Shown here piece after piece: positions 24,009-32,064 of a DNA stretch of 40,820 nucleotides. The stretch spans positions 1 to 40,820 of the forward strand of contig CANPHS010000006.1 of assembly GCA_947573925.1 (NCBI GenBank), in the 5' to 3' direction. How positions within the stretch are numbered: the first letter of the stretch is position 1; each line of letters starts with the position of its first letter. Position numbers and translations under genes: made by a program. The notes below the pieces were generated by a model. It saw only the letters and a list, made by a program, of their open reading frames with translations, made no database searches and had not been told where the DNA came from. The stretch comes from an uncultured Enterorhabdus sp. (GTDB taxonomy: Bacteria > Actinomycetota > Coriobacteriia > Coriobacteriales > Eggerthellaceae).

Positions 24009-24207
24009 GGCGGCTTCCGGATGTGCGGTTTCGGCGATCTCTGAGCGCCCCACGGAGAACGCGGCCCATAAGAAGCAGATTCCACTTCAGCAGCAACAAT
24101 GCTGGGATAGTACCGGCAGATGTGCGTCATCTTCTCTGCTTCTTTTGCCGCGTTCGCAGTGGGATCAGCGCTCAGCGGGCGACGAAACCGCACATCCGGG
24201 AGCCGCC
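24009..24207. repeat. ~199-bp hairpin element, copy A
   Basis: GGCGGCTTCCGGATGTGCGGTTTCG / CGAAACCGCACATCCGGGAGCCGCC ends; core shared with copy B at 30085-30281. Confidence 0.85.
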
Positions 24208-24246
24208 CCCGAGCGGGCGACGAAACCGGTCGCTCGGGAGCCGCCC
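24208..24246. repeat. Tandem partial duplication (38-bp period) of the right end of copy A
   Basis: AGCGGGCGACGAAACCG at 24174 and 24212; GGGAGCCGCCC at 24198 and 24236. Confidence 0.75.
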
Positions 24247-24259
24247 GAGCAGAGCCGGC

Positions 24260-24955
24260 TTACAACGTTTCCCGACCCTGGGGCATAACCCCGAGAGAGA
24301 TCTTCAAGTTGCCGTTCAAGCAGCGCAGTTCGTCGATGAGGGCCTTCTCCAGCCCCGGCTCCCGCAGGCGCAGCGCATAGGTGAGCTGGAAGAGGCTGCC
24401 CATGTTCGTGGTGGTCACTTCCGTCAGTTCCGCCTCGCTGGCGTAGCGGGCCAGCACGCCGTCGAAGATGCCGTCGTATTCCAAATCCTCGGGGATGGTG
24501 ATCTTCAACATCTTCCCCGGTTCGTGCGGACGCCCAAAGGGAGTGAGCACGAACAGCAGGTTCACCACGGCCACTACCAGGGTGAACACCACGGCGAGCC
24601 CCAAAAAGCCCATGCCCGTGGCCAGGCCGACGGCCATGGCCAGAAACACGCTGCCGATGTCCTTGGCCGAGCCGGGGATGGAGCGGAACCGCACGAGGTT
24701 GAACACGCCCATGACGGCGATGCCCGCGCCGAGGTTCCCGTTCACCAGGGTGATGACCATCTGCACGATGAGCGGCAGCAGCGCCAGGGTGACCACGAAG
24801 TTCTTCGAGTAGTTGTGGCGGAACATGTACACGGCCGCGCAGGCCATGCCGAGCACCACCGAGGCGGCGCAGCACAGTAAGAAGTCAGCCGCCGACACGG
24901 CGCCCACGAGGGATTCGGCGCTGCCGAACACAGAGCTGAACGTTGATTCGAGCAT
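24260..24955 (-). CDS. DUF4956 family membrane protein
   Basis: MLESTFSSVFGSAESLVG...NLGAGIAVMGVFNLVRFRSIPGSAKDIGSVFLAMAVGLATGMG. Confidence 0.85.
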   Translation of the reverse strand: MLESTFSSVFGSAESLVGAVSAADFLLCCAASVVLGMACAAVYMFRHNYSKNFVVTLALLPLIVQMVITLVNGNLGAGIAVMGVFNLVRFRSIPGSAKDIGSVFLAMAVGLATGMGFLGLAVVFTLVVAVVNLLFVLTPFGRPHEPGKMLKITIPEDLEYDGIFDGVLARYASEAELTEVTTTNMGSLFQLTYALRLREPGLEKALIDELRCLNGNLKISLGVMPQGRETL

Positions 24956-24969
24956 AGTTTTCCTTTCTT

Positions 24970-25905
24970 CTAGCTGACTGCGAGGGCCGCTTGTAGCGCA
25001 GTGCCCTCGCAGAGTTGGTAGGCGTTGCCGTACTTGGTGAACGGCACCGGGTAGATGGCGTGGGCCGAAAGCGCCTCCACGAGCCACGGCGGGTAGGGGC
25101 CGGCGCTTTTGATCTCCAAAATGGATTCCGTCGGCGCAATGATGGGTTCCCAATCCTGCGCGAGGCCGTGGCAATTACGGTACGCCAAGCGGTCGTCGAA
25201 GGTGAGGCGCAGACCGGGATCGAGAGCCGCGCTTTCATTCGACGGCGCGGGTGCCCAGGCCACGCGGTCGCAAGCGATGCCCATGGAAGGCGCCAGGGGC
25301 AGCCAGCGATCCATGGCGGCTGTCAGTTCCCGGGCGATCTGCCGGGTGGCCGGGGCGAGGGCGGCAGCGACCAGGGCCGGGTCGGCCAAGGGCCAGCGGG
25401 CGCAGGCCTGTTCGTAGGGCAGGCCGCTCACGAAGGCCAGGGCCGCCGGCAGGGTGAGGGCCAACCGACGCTTGTACACGATGCCCTTGAACTTCTTCTT
25501 GATGCCGAAGAACACCGGCACCGTCAGGAGGTCGAAGGCCGCAGCCGCATCGCCGACCGCAGCCGCGGCCGCCCGCACCCGGGCCTCCACCTCGTCGTCG
25601 GCCAGGGGCACGCCGCCAGCCTCGCGTACCACCGGGCCGGCGCCGAAGGCCGCCATAAGCACGACGCCGGCCGCTTCTCCGTAGGTCCGCAGGCGCAGTT
25701 TCTCCTTGTACAGCGGCTTTTCCACCGACCGGGCAATCATGGCCCGGCCCGGCGTGTCCAGATACAGACTCGTGATGCGACTGCGCCCGAACCGGTCCGG
25801 TCCCAGGCCGCCCCCGTTCCGCGCCGCAGCCTCCATGGCGCTGCGCTGGACCGCATCGATGCGATACTTTTTCTCCACGCGCTTGAACACGCTGTCGTAG
25901 GCCAC
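24970..25905 (-). CDS. VTC domain (polyphosphate polymerase-like) protein
   Basis: VAYDSVFKRVEKKYRIDAVQ, SLYLDTPGRAMIARS, YKEKLRLRTYGE, VFFGIKKKFKGIVYKRR, ILEIKSAGPYPPWL. Confidence 0.85.
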   Translation of the reverse strand: MAYDSVFKRVEKKYRIDAVQRSAMEAAARNGGGLGPDRFGRSRITSLYLDTPGRAMIARSVEKPLYKEKLRLRTYGEAAGVVLMAAFGAGPVVREAGGVPLADDEVEARVRAAAAAVGDAAAAFDLLTVPVFFGIKKKFKGIVYKRRLALTLPAALAFVSGLPYEQACARWPLADPALVAAALAPATRQIARELTAAMDRWLPLAPSMGIACDRVAWAPAPSNESAALDPGLRLTFDDRLAYRNCHGLAQDWEPIIAPTESILEIKSAGPYPPWLVEALSAHAIYPVPFTKYGNAYQLCEGTALQAALAVS

Positions 25906-25986
25906 GGCGCCTCCTTTCCCACGCAATCTGCCGACGGGCCGCACCGACCCGCTCCGTGTCAACGGCGGCCCATCTTAGGGGTACTT

Positions 25987-26034
25987 CCTGAAAACTCACT
26001 GAACCAGCGACCTTCCTTTCAGTTTGCCTTCAGG
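25987..26034. promoter_or_regulatory. Candidate response-regulator operator: two inverted pairs of 11-bp-spaced direct repeats
   Basis: CCTGAA-N5-ACTGAA (25987-26003) and TTCAGT-N5-TTCAGG (26018-26034) in the divergent VTC/response-regulator spacer. Confidence 0.65.
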
Positions 26035-26083
26035 AGGCACGGTACAATAACGCCAGCACATTCGCCATGGAGAAGGAGCAGCC

Positions 26084-26764
26084 GTGCGCATACTGGTAGT
26101 GGAAGACGACGTTCGCCTCGCCGAGGCGCTGGCGCGCATTCTGGAAGACAACGGCTACACCGTGGATATGGTGCACGACGGCCAGGCCGGCATCGACTAC
26201 GGCGAGTCGGGCACCTACGACGTCATCATCATGGACGTCATGCTGCCCAAGGTGGACGGCTTCACCGCCACCCAGCGTTTGCGCCGGGCCCACGTGAGCA
26301 CCCCCATCCTGCTGCTCACGGCCCGCGACGCCACCACCGACAAGATCACCGGGCTCGATTCCGGAGCCGACGATTACATGACCAAGCCCTTCTCGCCGGC
26401 CGAGCTCATGGCCCATTTGCGGGCGCTCACCCGCCGCCAGGGCGACGTGGTGTTCGAAACGCTCACAGCAGGCGACCTCACCCTGAACCTGGAAAGCCTC
26501 GACCTCACCTGCGGTGGCGAGACTATCCGCCTGTCGCAGAAGGAATTCGCCATCGCCCGCATTCTCATGGGCACGCCGGGGGCCGTCATCTCGAAGGAGG
26601 CGCTCATCGACCGCGCCTGGGGCCCCGATTCCACGGCCAGTGAGAACAACGTGGAGGCCTACATTTCGTTTCTGCGGAAGAAGATGGGGCACGTGGGTTC
26701 CACGGCCCGCATTGAGACCATCCGCAGCGTGGGCTACCGCTTTGCGGAAGGCGCGGCCCAGTGA
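26084..26764 (+). CDS. OmpR-family response regulator
   Basis: MRILVVEDDVRLAEAL, DVIIMDVMLPKVDGF, GADDYMTKPFSPAELMAHLRAL, winged-helix C-terminus. Confidence 0.94.
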   Translation: MRILVVEDDVRLAEALARILEDNGYTVDMVHDGQAGIDYGESGTYDVIIMDVMLPKVDGFTATQRLRRAHVSTPILLLTARDATTDKITGLDSGADDYMTKPFSPAELMAHLRALTRRQGDVVFETLTAGDLTLNLESLDLTCGGETIRLSQKEFAIARILMGTPGAVISKEALIDRAWGPDSTASENNVEAYISFLRKKMGHVGSTARIETIRSVGYRFAEGAAQ

Positions 26765-28176
26765 CATCCCCCCTGCCTCACCACGCCCCTCCCCTCCTGC
26801 GCCGGCTGCGGGTGAAGTTTGTCACCCTGAACATGGCCATTGCCGCCGTGGTGCTGGCCGGTTCCTTCGCGGCCATCTGTTACATGGACTACCGCGGCGA
26901 CGTGGACGAGGCGTACCGCACCCTCCACCAGGCGGCGGCCGCGGCCGTGGAGAAGCCGCCCCTCACCCCCGATCATGCCCCCCTTATGCCCGACGGGCCT
27001 CGCGGCGAGGATCCCGAAGGCGTGCCGAGCGCGGAAGATGCCGAAATCGGAGGCGGGGAAGGGAACGCCGACGGAGACGAGGGCTTCGCGCCACCCCAGA
27101 TCGGCGGCGGTCGGCGGCGCAACAGCGAGAACATGCTGCCTGTGGCCGTCTACTACTGCCAGGACGGCTCGGCAATGGCGCTGGCCGATCATTCGTCGGC
27201 ATCGGTGCCCGAGACCCTCTTGCCCCGGGCTCTTGCCGACGCCCTCGCCGCCGAGGGCACCCAAGGCTACCTGCCCGAAGCGGGCCTCTTCTTCTCGCGG
27301 CGCGCCGAAGGGCCCGGCGCCATCGTCGCCTTCGCCGACGGCGGGGCAGCGAGCGCCTGGCGCAGCCTGGCCCTCGGGCTCACTGGCGTGGGCGTGGTCG
27401 CCCTCGGGCTGTTGTTCCTGCTGAACCTGTACCTGTCGCGCTGGGCCCTGCGGCCGGTGCAGCGAGCCTGGACCCAGCAGCAGCAATTCATCGCCGACGC
27501 GTCCCACGAGCTGAAAACGCCGCTCACGGTCATTCTGGCCAACAACGCCATCCTGCGCCAGCGGGGTGCGGAAACCGTGGCCAGCCAGGGCCAGTGGATC
27601 GAGAGCACTCAGATGGAAGCCGAGCGCATGCAAGCCTTGGTGACCGACATGCTGGATCTGGCCCGCCCCGCCGCCGACGGAGGAGCCGCGCAAGCCGAGT
27701 CCGCGTCCTCCGTCGATTTCAGCCGTCTCGTGGAAGGCGAGGCCCTCACCTTCGAGGCCGTGGCCTTCGAGCGGTCCATCGCCTGGGAAAGCGCCGTGGC
27801 CCCGGGCGTGACGGTGCGCGGCGACGCCACCCGGCTTCAGCGCTGTGTGGCCGTGCTGCTGGACAACGCCTGCAAGTACACCGAGACCGGGGGCACCGTG
27901 GCCGTGGCGCTGCGGGCGGAAGGGGGCGAGGCGGTGCTCGCCGTGCGCAACTCCGGCGACCCCATCGCGCCCGAGGACCTGCCGCACCTCTTCGACCGCT
28001 TCTACCGCGCCGACAAGGCCCGCACCCACGGCGACGCCGAGAACGACGCGCCCCAGGGCTACGGTCTCGGCCTCGCCATCGCCCAGGACATCGCCCGCGC
28101 CCACAAAGGCACCCTCACCGTAACCAGCACCCCCGAGGCGGCCACCACCTTCACCCTGCGCCTACCGGTAGCGTAG
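26761..28176 (+). CDS. Sensor histidine kinase
   Basis: FIADASHELKTPLTVILANNAIL, LDNACKYTETGG, HLFDRFYRADKAR, GYGLGLAIAQDIARAH; overlaps the RR stop by 4 nt. Confidence 0.93.
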   Translation: MTSPLPHHAPPLLRRLRVKFVTLNMAIAAVVLAGSFAAICYMDYRGDVDEAYRTLHQAAAAAVEKPPLTPDHAPLMPDGPRGEDPEGVPSAEDAEIGGGEGNADGDEGFAPPQIGGGRRRNSENMLPVAVYYCQDGSAMALADHSSASVPETLLPRALADALAAEGTQGYLPEAGLFFSRRAEGPGAIVAFADGGAASAWRSLALGLTGVGVVALGLLFLLNLYLSRWALRPVQRAWTQQQQFIADASHELKTPLTVILANNAILRQRGAETVASQGQWIESTQMEAERMQALVTDMLDLARPAADGGAAQAESASSVDFSRLVEGEALTFEAVAFERSIAWESAVAPGVTVRGDATRLQRCVAVLLDNACKYTETGGTVAVALRAEGGEAVLAVRNSGDPIAPEDLPHLFDRFYRADKARTHGDAENDAPQGYGLGLAIAQDIARAHKGTLTVTSTPEAATTFTLRLPVA

Positions 28177-28214
28177 CGCCCCCCACCGCCCGCCGCTCGC
28201 CCCACTGCCGAAAA

Positions 28215-28310
28215 CCCGTGCAAATGTGCGCCTTTTTGCAGCCAATCCGCACAAAGCTTGGGAAAACGTGCAGGTTTCTGCCGATGAAACGTACAAAGTG
28301 ACGGATTCCG
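28215..28310. repeat. Two degenerate copies of a short intergenic repeat
   Basis: CGTGCAAATGTGCGCCTTTTTGCAGCCAATCCGCACAAAG vs CGTGCAGGTTTCTGCCGATGAAACGTACAAAG. Confidence 0.4.
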
Positions 28311-28356
28311 TACGGAGATTCGCAGATTGCGTATGGTCCCGGCGGAACATGCAAAG

Positions 28357-28392
28357 GCCCCCAGGCCGTGAAGAGGATAGGGGCCTGGGGGC
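28357..28392. terminator. Hairpin between convergent HK and Fe-S genes, likely terminator
   Basis: GCCCCCAGGCC...GGCCTGGGGGC, perfect 11-bp stem. Confidence 0.5.
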
Positions 28393-28505
28393 AGGGTAGG
28401 GAAACCGCCGGGTTTGCAGGGAGAGTGGCGGCTTTCTACCTCTCGGAATGGGCGAAACGCACAACGGAGACGGACAGGTAAGCGCGAGCGAAGTGCCTGC
28501 CGCCG

Positions 28506-29987
28506 CTACCTCTCGAAAATGTCTCCGTTGAAGGTTTGGCGGAAGGTGTCGAGGATCTGGTGGGGGTTGTCCGCCAGGTCCACGGCCCGCGGGGTCATGG
28601 CGTAGCGGTGGCGGCTGCCGTCCACGAGCCAGCTGGCTCGCACCTCGTCCAAGATGGTGATGGCGCCGGCTGGGCAAATGTCCTGGCAGCTGCCGCATTT
28701 CACGCAATCGGCCGGAGTGTGGGTCACGCCCATGGCGCCGTCGGCCTCGTCGAACTTGGCGATGGCGCCGGTGGGGCAGAACGTGGCGCACATGCGGCAC
28801 GAAGTGCACTTCACGCCGTCGATGACCACGGCGCCCACGAGCCGGCCGCCCACCGTGGGGGCCGCAGGCTCGCCGAGGGCGGCCAGGGCGTCCAGCAGCC
28901 GCTCGCGCCGGTCGGGAATGAAATGGGGCAGGGTGCCGTCCTTCATCACGTGGAGGGCGTGGGCCGCCACCTTGCGGCTGTGGCCCGAGTTCCAGAAGAA
29001 CCGCAGGCCCGGGCCGACCGGGGTGTCGGCCGCCTCGGCCTCGGGGGACGAAAGGGACAGCGGGGCGGGGGCGTCGTTGGGGGTGTCGCCGGAGGCAGAG
29101 GGGGCTCCGGGAGCGGCATCCTCCGGTCCCGCTGTTCCCGCAGGAACCGCCGCAGCGGAAGGCACTTCCTCAGGTGGGCGGCAAGGGCAGAGCCCTTGCC
29201 CTACGGGGGAGTTCTCGGGCGCGTTTGGCGCATCGGCGATGCCAGGGGCGCCCGATGTCCTGGCAACCTCGGCATCGTTGTTCATCTCGCCAACCTCCCC
29301 GGCCCGCACCGGTTCGCAGGCCCGGTCCTCGGCGAAGAAGGCGTCGCGGGCGCGGGCGGCGTCGGCGGGCGCGGCGCCGGGCGCCAGCACGGCGGCGGGA
29401 ACCTCGTCGGTCACCGTCATGGCGAAGGGGGTGCCCCAGGCGTCCAGCAGCGTGCGGGTCGTTTCGGCCACGAGCACGGCGGTGGCGGCCCCGTGGCGCT
29501 GGGCACACTGGTCGCAGCGGCCGCACAGCACCGTGGCCTCCGTCACGCCGCGGGCGGCCAGGGTGCACAGCAGCGCCTCGTCCACCCGGCCCGCGCACAC
29601 CACCGGCGCCACCTTCGCGGCATCCACCAGGCCGTCCAGGGCCTCCAAAGCCAGCGAGCAGGCCACGGTGACGTGCTCCTCGTCCGCCGCGACGAGGCAT
29701 GCGCCCAACAGCTCGGCATCGCTCGGGTTCAGGGCCTCCAGGGCGCAGGTAGGGCACACCGTGGCGCAGGTGCCACAGCCCACGCAGCGGGCCGCATCGA
29801 TGACCAGCTCGCCATCGACCAGCGCAATGCAGCCCGACGTGCAGGCCGCGGCGCACTTCAGACACTCAACGTTGCGGTTGCGCACCTTGGCGCACCGCTC
29901 CCGATGCACACGGATAGCGGTGCCGTCCACGGCCGCGAAGGCGGCGCCCACATGGCGGTGGGCCGCCGCGTCAACTCTCTCAACCAT
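28506..29987 (-). CDS. Multi-[4Fe-4S] cluster protein with long low-complexity linker, last gene of cluster 2
   Basis: CLKCAAACTSGCIAL, CVGCGTCATVCPTCALEAL, CTSCRMCATFCPTGAIAKF, CVKCGSCQDICPAGAITIL; start ATG 29987. Confidence 0.82.
   Translation of the reverse strand: MVERVDAAAHRHVGAAFAAVDGTAIRVHRERCAKVRNRNVECLKCAAACTSGCIALVDGELVIDAARCVGCGTCATVCPTCALEALNPSDAELLGACLVAADEEHVTVACSLALEALDGLVDAAKVAPVVCAGRVDEALLCTLAARGVTEATVLCGRCDQCAQRHGAATAVLVAETTRTLLDAWGTPFAMTVTDEVPAAVLAPGAAPADAARARDAFFAEDRACEPVRAGEVGEMNNDAEVARTSGAPGIADAPNAPENSPVGQGLCPCRPPEEVPSAAAVPAGTAGPEDAAPGAPSASGDTPNDAPAPLSLSSPEAEAADTPVGPGLRFFWNSGHSRKVAAHALHVMKDGTLPHFIPDRRERLLDALAALGEPAAPTVGGRLVGAVVIDGVKCTSCRMCATFCPTGAIAKFDEADGAMGVTHTPADCVKCGSCQDICPAGAITILDEVRASWLVDGSRHRYAMTPRAVDLADNPHQILDTFRQTFNGDIFER
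29174..29208. repeat. REP-like palindrome inside the Fe-S protein coding sequence
   Basis: GGGCGGCAAGGGC-AGA-GCCCTTGCCCTACGGGGGA; encodes SPVGQGLCPCRPPEE within the linker. Confidence 0.6.
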
Positions 29988-30084
29988 CGTCGCTCCTCTT
30001 CTGCAGGACCCCGGCCTCTCCCAAAGCCGAAGCCCCACGTCAACGATCGTTACTTCAACAACTTCAACAAAAGAAACCTCTCGT

Positions 30085-30281
30085 GGCGGCTCCCGGGTGC
30101 CCTGTTCGCGGACGTCTGAGCGCCCTGCGAAGAACGCGGCCCTTAAGAAGCGGATTCCACTTCAGCAGCAGCGATGCCGGGACCGTACCGGCCCATGTGC
30201 GTCATCTTCTCCGCTTATCTTGCCGCGTTCGCAGCAGGATAAGCGCGAAGTCGGCCGCGAACAGGGTACCCGGGAGCCGCC
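30085..30281. repeat. ~197-bp hairpin element, copy B
   Basis: GGCGGCTCCCGGGTGCCCTGTTCGCGG / CCGCGAACAGGGTACCCGGGAGCCGCC ends; core shared with copy A. Confidence 0.85.
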
Positions 30282-30293
30282 CCAGAGAAGTCG

Positions 30294-31298
30294 CTAGTCC
30301 AGTTTCGGCTCCAGGTCTTCCAGGGTGGGCTCCAGCACCTCCACGGTGCCCTTCTTCGCCGGGGCAAACAGCGGCATGGTGATGGCCTTGGTGGGGCAGG
30401 CGTCCACGCAGGCGCGGCAGCGGGTGCAGTCGGCCGTGGTGAGCTCGCCGAAGTCGGGGTGGCGCAGATTGATGTCGAACTCGCACACCTCGGCGCACTT
30501 GCTGCAGGAAGCGCCCTTGGCGGTCTCCAGGCACTTCTCGTCGTTGATGACCGGCACGAAGGTGCGCGAGAAGCGGCCCACCAGGTTCATGAGCGCCGAC
30601 AGCGGGCAGAAGCGCGTGCACCACTTCCGCAGAAACACGATCTCGATGATGAGCATGGCCGGGATGAGAATGATGCCGATGGTGGCGTCGCCCGCCGAGA
30701 AGGCCCGCCACAGCACGAGCACCGTGGCGAAGGTGAGGCCCACGGGGCACACGAGGCAGAACACGGGGAACCCGAACACGGCCGTGGAGAGCAGCGCCCC
30801 GGCCAGCACCCCGTGGCGGGAATCCAGCTTGCCGTGCTTGACGGGCTGGCACTTCCCACAGACGCCGCAGGCATGCCCGCCCTCGGCGTCGCCCTTCGCG
30901 CCCGCGCCCTTCCCCATGGCCGCGTGCAGCCCTTCCAGCTCCTGCTGGGAAATAGCCTTGATCTCGCTGTTCTTCTGCTCGGCGAGCGCCTTGCGCTTCT
31001 TGGGCGAGCGGAAGTAGTCGCGGATGCGGTAGATGAGGGTGGTGGGGCACAGCCACGCGCAGAAGGCGCGGCCCACGAGCAGCACGAGGGCCGCCATGAT
31101 GACGAGCGAGATGACGGCCCGCGGGATCATGGTCTTCGTGGCGATCATGGTGCCGAGCGCCCCCAGGGGGCACAGCGCGGCGATGGTGTCCCAGCCGAAG
31201 CCGGACAGGGTGCCGGTGCTCACGCCGGCCACGAGCCCGAACGCCATGGCGCCGAACACCACGGCGGCGATGATGGTGCGGAGGTTCTTGGTCTTCAT
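30294..31298 (-). CDS. NapH-like membrane [4Fe-4S] protein
   Basis: MKTKNLRTIIAAVVFGAMAFGLVAG...; FCAWLCPTTLIYR, FCLVCPVGLTF, CTRCRACVDACPTKAI. Confidence 0.85.
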   Translation of the reverse strand: MKTKNLRTIIAAVVFGAMAFGLVAGVSTGTLSGFGWDTIAALCPLGALGTMIATKTMIPRAVISLVIMAALVLLVGRAFCAWLCPTTLIYRIRDYFRSPKKRKALAEQKNSEIKAISQQELEGLHAAMGKGAGAKGDAEGGHACGVCGKCQPVKHGKLDSRHGVLAGALLSTAVFGFPVFCLVCPVGLTFATVLVLWRAFSAGDATIGIILIPAMLIIEIVFLRKWCTRFCPLSALMNLVGRFSRTFVPVINDEKCLETAKGASCSKCAEVCEFDINLRHPDFGELTTADCTRCRACVDACPTKAITMPLFAPAKKGTVEVLEPTLEDLEPKLD

Positions 31299-31311
31299 AC
31301 AGGCTTCCTCC

Positions 31312-32064
31312 CTAGGCCTCGATGGGGCGGACCACGATGGCCCGCTCGGTGGACTTGATGGAACCCGACGACAGGGACAGGCACGCCGCCTGGCAGGCGC
31401 CGCAGCCGTTGCAGCGGTCCTCCACCACATAGGGGATGGGGTTCGCGCCGCCCTCGTCTTTCAGCTCGATGGCACCGTATTTGCAGGCGTCGAAGCAGTC
31501 GCGGCAGCCGGTCATGCGGTAGGCCAGGCAGGTGCGCGGGTCGATCTCGGCGATGCCGATGATGACGTCGCCGGTCTCGCCGGTCTCGGGGTTGCCCACG
31601 GTGTAGGCGGCCGGCAGCTCCAGGGCGTCGGTGGGGCACACGGCCACGCACTGCGGGTTGCCGCCGTTCTCCTCGTAGCAGAAGTCGCAGTAGTTCCCCG
31701 TGTTGAAGTCGAGCATGGGGCTGCGCATGCCGAGCAGGCCGTCCTCGATCTTCGCCGGCACGATCACCTTGCGGGGGCAGGCCTCGTAGCAGCGCTCGCA
31801 GCGAATGCAGCCGGACACGAGATGGGCCTCGTCGGTGCCTCCGGGCGGGCGGTTCAGCGGGTTGTGGCCCGCATAGCGCAGGCTTCCCAGGCCCAGCAGG
31901 GCCACGGTGGACCCCACGCCGATGAACAGCCCGCGCCGCGAGATGCCGCCGCGCTCGGCCCGCTTGGGCTCGGCGCCCTCGGTGCCCTCGACGCCCGCCG
32001 CGGCGTTCTCGGCCGCCGGGGCCGCGGCCGCATCGACGGCCACTTCCTTCTTCTCTTCTTCCAT
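31312..32064 (-). CDS. NapG-like [4Fe-4S] ferredoxin with Tat-like signal
   Basis: ISRRGLFIGVGSTVALLGLGSL; CIRCERCYEACP, CVAVCPTDAL, CRDCFDACKYGAI, CNGCGACQAAC. Confidence 0.85.
   Translation of the reverse strand: MEEEKKEVAVDAAAAPAAENAAAGVEGTEGAEPKRAERGGISRRGLFIGVGSTVALLGLGSLRYAGHNPLNRPPGGTDEAHLVSGCIRCERCYEACPRKVIVPAKIEDGLLGMRSPMLDFNTGNYCDFCYEENGGNPQCVAVCPTDALELPAAYTVGNPETGETGDVIIGIAEIDPRTCLAYRMTGCRDCFDACKYGAIELKDEGGANPIPYVVEDRCNGCGACQAACLSLSSGSIKSTERAIVVRPIEA

Follow-up and report, generated by a model that had tools for sequence, protein, structure and literature searches.

The window (the whole stretch of 40,820 nucleotides analysed here) contains two copies of a hairpin element on the plus strand, copy A (24009-24207) and copy B (30085-30281), each next to a minus-strand gene: a DUF4956 protein gene (24260-25174; Pfam PF16316), whose 3' end is directed towards copy A and whose stop codon marks the site (in the G003 orthologue, 4 nt separate it from the arm); and a 4Fe-4S protein gene (30294-31430; Pfam Fer4_5 and related), whose stop codon is 12 nt past the right arm of copy B. 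Each copy forms a single long hairpin, with RNA folding energies of -138.2 kcal/mol for copy A (dinucleotide-shuffle mean -87.5, z -11.0) and -138.9 kcal/mol for copy B (mean -87.0, z -11.0); none of 200 shuffles was as low in either case. The copies are 80% identical overall and have in common the core strings listed in the original prediction, and their outer-arm sequences are unlike, each arm being complementary to its own partner. The fold, identity and arm comparisons confirm the two-copy hairpin with differing, self-complementary outer arms that had been proposed from the sequence.

Copy A, oriented so that the family core lies on the plus strand, is 97% identical to its orthologue in G003 (L008) and comprises a left variable arm of 27 nt (24010-24036; columns 4-30 of alignment A1), a conserved core including the mid stem, internal loops and apex (24037-24179; alignments A1 and A2; matched by covariance model R1 at 24038-24178, 165.7 bits), and a right variable arm (24180-24206) pairing with the left one. 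Its apical region (24080-24131) carries the conserved unpaired TTCCACTTCAGCAGCA ... GTACCGGC ... GTGCGTCA, with several near-invariant unpaired columns among 63 copies. Copy B has the same organisation: left variable arm (30085-30111, from sequence alignment and arm comparison), conserved core (30112-30254; R1 match at 30113-30253, 158.4 bits) and right variable arm (30255-30281) pairing with 30085-30111. A single pairing exception had been reported for each outer stem; copy B does have one, a G.T wobble, whereas copy A has a T.G wobble plus a real G.A mismatch near the core.

BLASTN with copy A detected 5-11 copies per genome in all nine Adlercreutzia-group genomes, including six places plus a fragment in the source genome (seven copies by the covariance model), and none in 32 genomes outside the genus; the further copies that the original prediction called for are thus present in its own genome and in relatives, dispersed over about 36 sites across the nine genomes. 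The covariance model that had also been suggested was built (R1: 141 positions, 32 pairs) and found the element in 18 of 140 family genomes and 4 of 48 genera, recovering full-length relatives in three further genera (g17, g61, g62) with the same fold and a genus-specific apex. A 301-genome sample of the order added one weak match (G171, E 2e-5). Rfam gave no gathering-level match in the window and nothing credible at E up to 1; searches of plasmids and viral contigs gave no match to the family, and a literature search for repeats in Adlercreutzia or Eggerthella returned nothing relevant. DNA-pattern matches in Mycobacterium, Streptomyces, Betaproteobacteria and other unrelated records were judged to be chance, because none of them fits the covariance model. 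The element, about 200 nt as a hairpin and about 230 nt with its tips, belongs to a previously uncatalogued family of dispersed hairpin repeats of Adlercreutzia and some other Eggerthellaceae, which no catalogued family matched.

Where the neighbouring genes are co-directional or convergent, an arm typically begins from a few to about 25 nt past a stop codon, whichever way the element is oriented. By rough gene calls, about half of the copies in the genus lie in one of the two co-directional arrangements and about a third between convergent genes; divergent placement is rare, at 4 of 66 copies. The placement of both copies between co-directional genes, as first described, is therefore right for this window, where both flanking genes are on the minus strand, and does not hold as a general rule, which is a position immediately after a stop codon in either orientation. 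Three empty sites were found among orthologues: L057, filled in G005, compared to L073/L074 in G002 and G004 (flanks 97% identical); and L068 compared to L088 and L028 compared to L091, both filled in G007 and empty in G008. All three consist of a short intergenic gap lacking the core and either arm, indicating that the hairpin comes or goes whole and that the arms are part of the element; they are unpolarised, and gain or deletion is possible. At L057 there is a degraded direct repeat, about 15 bp long, that resembles a target duplication, though not a clean one; L028 has a 5 bp direct repeat, and L068 no clear repeat.

At seven sites the copy has opposite orientations in different species. 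At L042/L062 the arms are recognisably alike (best 1.2% of background) and only the core is inverted; at L049/L053 the flanks are 99% identical and the entire element differs; and L067/L070 records a nested event, in which G007 retains half of a G008-type copy, the other half being replaced by a new copy that follows it, inverted and carrying new arms.

Pairing was evaluated in alignment A1 (63 copies, 48 pairs) against shuffles, a null that leaves the relatedness of the copies in place, and against slid alignments. About 95-96.4% of the cells are paired, compared to 67.6% in the shuffles and 41-48% in the slid controls, so the copies do not break pairing freely; double-changed cells number 851 compared to 267 in the shuffles, and the covariation score is 0.733 (shuffles 0.198, slid controls 0.12-0.15). 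Most outer pairs occur as GC, CG, AU and UA, indicating that the pattern does not come from one ancestral change. Mean column entropy is 1.41 bits in the highly variable arms and 0.54 in the conserved paired columns of the core, and the apex and internal loops include several unpaired positions that are invariant or near-invariant, among the most conserved of all. The element shows covariation beyond shuffles and slid controls, together with conserved unpaired positions. The covariation of the arms noticed at the outset is accordingly strong; between paralogues, simple stepwise covariation does not describe how the arms differ, the cores being swapped and the arms site-specific.

The exceptions to pairing are strand-biased. 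In well-paired columns read on the plus strand, 54 distinct events are G.U and 23 are A.C (P 5e-4) in the genus, and an independent count in the other genera gave 24 G.U and 9 A.C (P 0.014), so the plus-strand reading of the wobbles in the original prediction holds. In copies antisense to both neighbours the plus-strand ratio is 20:2, and read-through transcription from the neighbours is therefore no explanation of the bias. Transcription-linked deamination, also considered as a cause, predicts the opposite sign in precisely these copies and was rejected. Selection on a plus-strand RNA and selection on plus-strand single-stranded DNA fit the bias equally; it is no proof of an expressed RNA.

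Cores and arms have different histories. Among 52 copies having orthologues, the core of 24 is nearer to a non-orthologous copy (9 of them within the same genome), and the arms follow the site: L055 and L063 have 100% identical arms and 79% identical cores, and L032 has its nearest core (95% identical) in L024, a copy of the same genome, the arms of the two being at background level. With cores swapped between copies and arms site-specific, similar cores can bear unrelated arms. L066 is an uncorrected half-converted copy, whose right half derives from another copy and is mispaired with the left half, and L068 and L033 have the inner arm in common on both sides, to the same break point. L129 contains a 79-bp palindrome. 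Two-sided arm changes in close orthologues are in excess of independent placement (9 compared to 2.7 expected, P 1e-4), although one-sided changes are commoner (27), and in two groups of copies (L017/L020/L022 and L010/L011) one-sided changes accumulate, as in decaying DNA. Both causes proposed earlier, structural selection and hairpin-templated correction, fit this excess: the two-sided changes may arise through selection with rapid compensation, and published work shows that a single template switch can produce double changes and invert loops (PMC8794818) and that template switching can homogenise arms and invert the spacer (PMC8604942). Searching the flanks and the complete G001 genome for the origin of the arms turned up other copies or fragments of the element, each at its own site, and no further clear source; in the G102 relatives, paralogues have arm sequence in common.

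Sites that lack the first family in other species sometimes hold another hairpin (L081, L082, L083, L102). This second Adlercreutzia family (16-48 copies per genome, about 110-130 nt) has a conserved core, a covarying apical stem and variable paired arms. It resembles the first in the conserved core with paired variable arms, in GTAG and CGGACAG tips and in the kinds of site occupied, and differs in core sequence and in its higher copy number. GTAG to the left and CGGACAG to the right of the arms occur together in 2 of 65 first-family copies of the genus (0.03 expected), in 3 copies of the second family (0.00 expected) and in 3 of the copies from other genera (0.01 expected); this motif pair was picked after inspecting the data, which is not a formal test, and the co-occurrence is therefore suggestive. 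GTAG by itself lies left of 16 of 34 second-family copies (2.5-2.8 expected) and 7 of 31 copies from other genera (about 2 expected), and only weakly exceeds expectation in first-family copies of the genus (9 of 65, about 6 expected). The end motifs are weak in old copies and the tips are kept in a minority of copies; their presence in both families is suggestive of common machinery.

The family resembles known stem-loop repeats of bacteria: YPAL / RU-2, ERIC and NEMIS are likewise intergenic, 100-200 nt long, folded as one long stem-loop and devoid of their own transposase (PMC2229807, PMC2267715). Unlike them, the element described here has hypervariable yet paired outer arms and a core exchanged independently of the arms. 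As in a bacterial MITE, it is short and dispersed and has no transposase gene of its own. Its ends form the stem; no autonomous parent was found, only partial copies beside full ones. The contrast with an ordinary MITE in the original prediction was too strong, since a minority of copies retain the GTAG/CGGACAG tips and long stem-loops also occur among the known MITE-like repeats of bacteria; the original interpretation as a whole is partly supported. The multi-base compensatory changes and the loop inversions from one switch recall the RNA hairpins maintained by template switching (Monttinen and Loytynoja, PMC8794818), which are found in rRNA and other RNA genes, whereas here a dispersed bacterial repeat offers 27-bp arms and many natural replicates.

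The element is dispersed, structurally conserved, located beside stop codons, wholly missing at some orthologous sites and exchanged in its core, and its stems are paired despite change. It is probably a non-autonomous mobile long-hairpin family, whose pairing is kept by structural selection plus template-switch correction. Under this reading, the element would move as a single-stranded plus-strand hairpin, DNA or RNA, and a trans-acting enzyme would recognise the conserved apex, the internal loops and the end motifs GTAG/CGGACAG common to the second family; if recognition requires the paired stem, selection would act on structure. After insertion, template switching within the hairpin would carry a change from one arm over to its partner, and cores would pass between copies by gene conversion. 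A more tentative version, perhaps correct, treats the modules as separable: a putative enzyme would move single-stranded hairpins whose cores are of two or more unrelated types and which are alike only in their tips and in requiring a long paired stem, and landing or repair may renew the arms, restoring perfect pairing.

Four other explanations were weighed against the mobile hairpin. A neutral old repeat, in which pairing after the spread is kept only by template-switch correction and gene conversion without structural selection, would account for the excess of two-sided changes even among close orthologues, the symmetric break points of L068 and L033, the homologous arms with an inverted core at the L042/L062 site and the uncorrected L066 copy; we regard it as unlikely, because the conservation of unpaired apex and internal-loop positions is beyond what correction explains, and the plus-strand G.U bias is unexpected of a strand-neutral process. 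The position of nearly all copies a few nucleotides past a stop codon, with divergent (promoter) sites rare, would suit an RNA element that serves the host at the 3' end, as a terminator, an RNase III site or an mRNA stabiliser needed by the upstream transcript, and REP, ERIC and NEMIS have 3'-end RNA roles in other bacteria (PMC2267715, PMC2229807). However, both orientations are found at the same site, orthologous genes manage without the element, and the doubly antisense copies would be transcribed as the minus strand and yet show the plus-strand excess, which leaves this role quite improbable.

REP sequences have as their hallmark a GTAG at the hairpin's 5' foot (PMC3733652, PMC8266576), and REP/REPIN elements, mobilised by the Y1 transposase TnpA-REP (RAYT), also resemble the better preserved copies of this family in GTAG position, location after genes and strand asymmetry; plus-strand-specific recognition of single-stranded DNA would account for the G.U/G.T bias, and among nine genomes of other genera that bear the element, five contain weak Y1 homologues. 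On the other hand, the element is several times longer than REPs (about 200 nt compared to 20-40 bp), has 5-11 copies per genome and carries an extra CGGACAG tag at its other end, and most host genomes lack a RAYT gene: Y1/HUH transposases (PF01797) are missing from 7 of 9 genus genomes and from the element-bearing G024, G103, G132 and G140, and where other genera have Y1 genes, no GTAG hairpins of this sort lie beside them. No mobilising gene was found, and mobilisation by a Y1 transposase is disfavoured, which makes a REP/REPIN-type element very unlikely. The arms could finally be host sequence, through insertion of the core into the loop of a pre-existing terminator or through an insertion that made an inverted target copy, as they vary by site, remain with it and lie at gene ends; both variants are refuted at the tested sites, where the three empty sites lack both arms, and the shared arm sequence of the G102 paralogues and the lack of another clear source in the G001 genome or nearby flanks make this origin extremely improbable.

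The hairpin represents a new family of bacterial stem-loop repeats whose cores and arms, unusually, evolve separately, and it suggests a hairpin-handling enzyme in Eggerthellaceae. It bears on the old question of whether long stems are kept paired by stepwise G.U compensation or by single-event template switching: the family supplies dozens of 27-bp stems, at orthologous sites and in species that can be cultured, and with its snapshots of double changes, of inverted copies and of a copy left half-converted and mispaired it constitutes a natural test case for the upkeep of perfect long hairpins. Covariation in a repeat family can also arise other than by selection on an expressed RNA, which calls for caution in automated ncRNA discovery. 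A minor feature of the window itself is an imperfect tandem repeat of the end of the copy A right arm (24209-24245, plus strand), missing in the G003 orthologue.

A second hairpin repeat family was present in all nine Adlercreutzia-group genomes, at 16-48 copies in each (members: loci L081, L082, L083, L102 and L207-L236), with the core GACCGAGCGAGTTCCGCAGC...CGAGGACTGTCTGAGCGAATC and an apical stem that covaries. Outside Eggerthellaceae, the covariance model built from the first hairpin family gave a weak match (38.6 bits) at G171:C4:72730-72855, in a genome from the sample of the order.

Both L046 and L055 consist of a full copy of the first element adjoined by additional tandem right halves of it (~100 bp per unit). 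In another copy, L129 (G140, around 1422-1721), the inverted arms are perfect over 79 bp and run on into the neighbouring sequence; since the genome is a draft, this may be an artefact of its assembly. Beside copy A, window positions 24209-24245 hold an apparent imperfect tandem repeat of its right end, containing a small palindrome of its own; this tandem repeat, absent from the closest orthologue of copy A, may be either real or an assembly effect.

A 29-bp palindromic repeat, ATGAGTCRYGCCCCAGGGGCAAAACTCAT, lies on either side of the element at L127 and L160 (genus g61), and at L085 and L086 another palindromic sequence, CCGTAGGGCGAAGGCC...GGCCCTTGCCCTACGGG, is found where the orthologous site holds the element.
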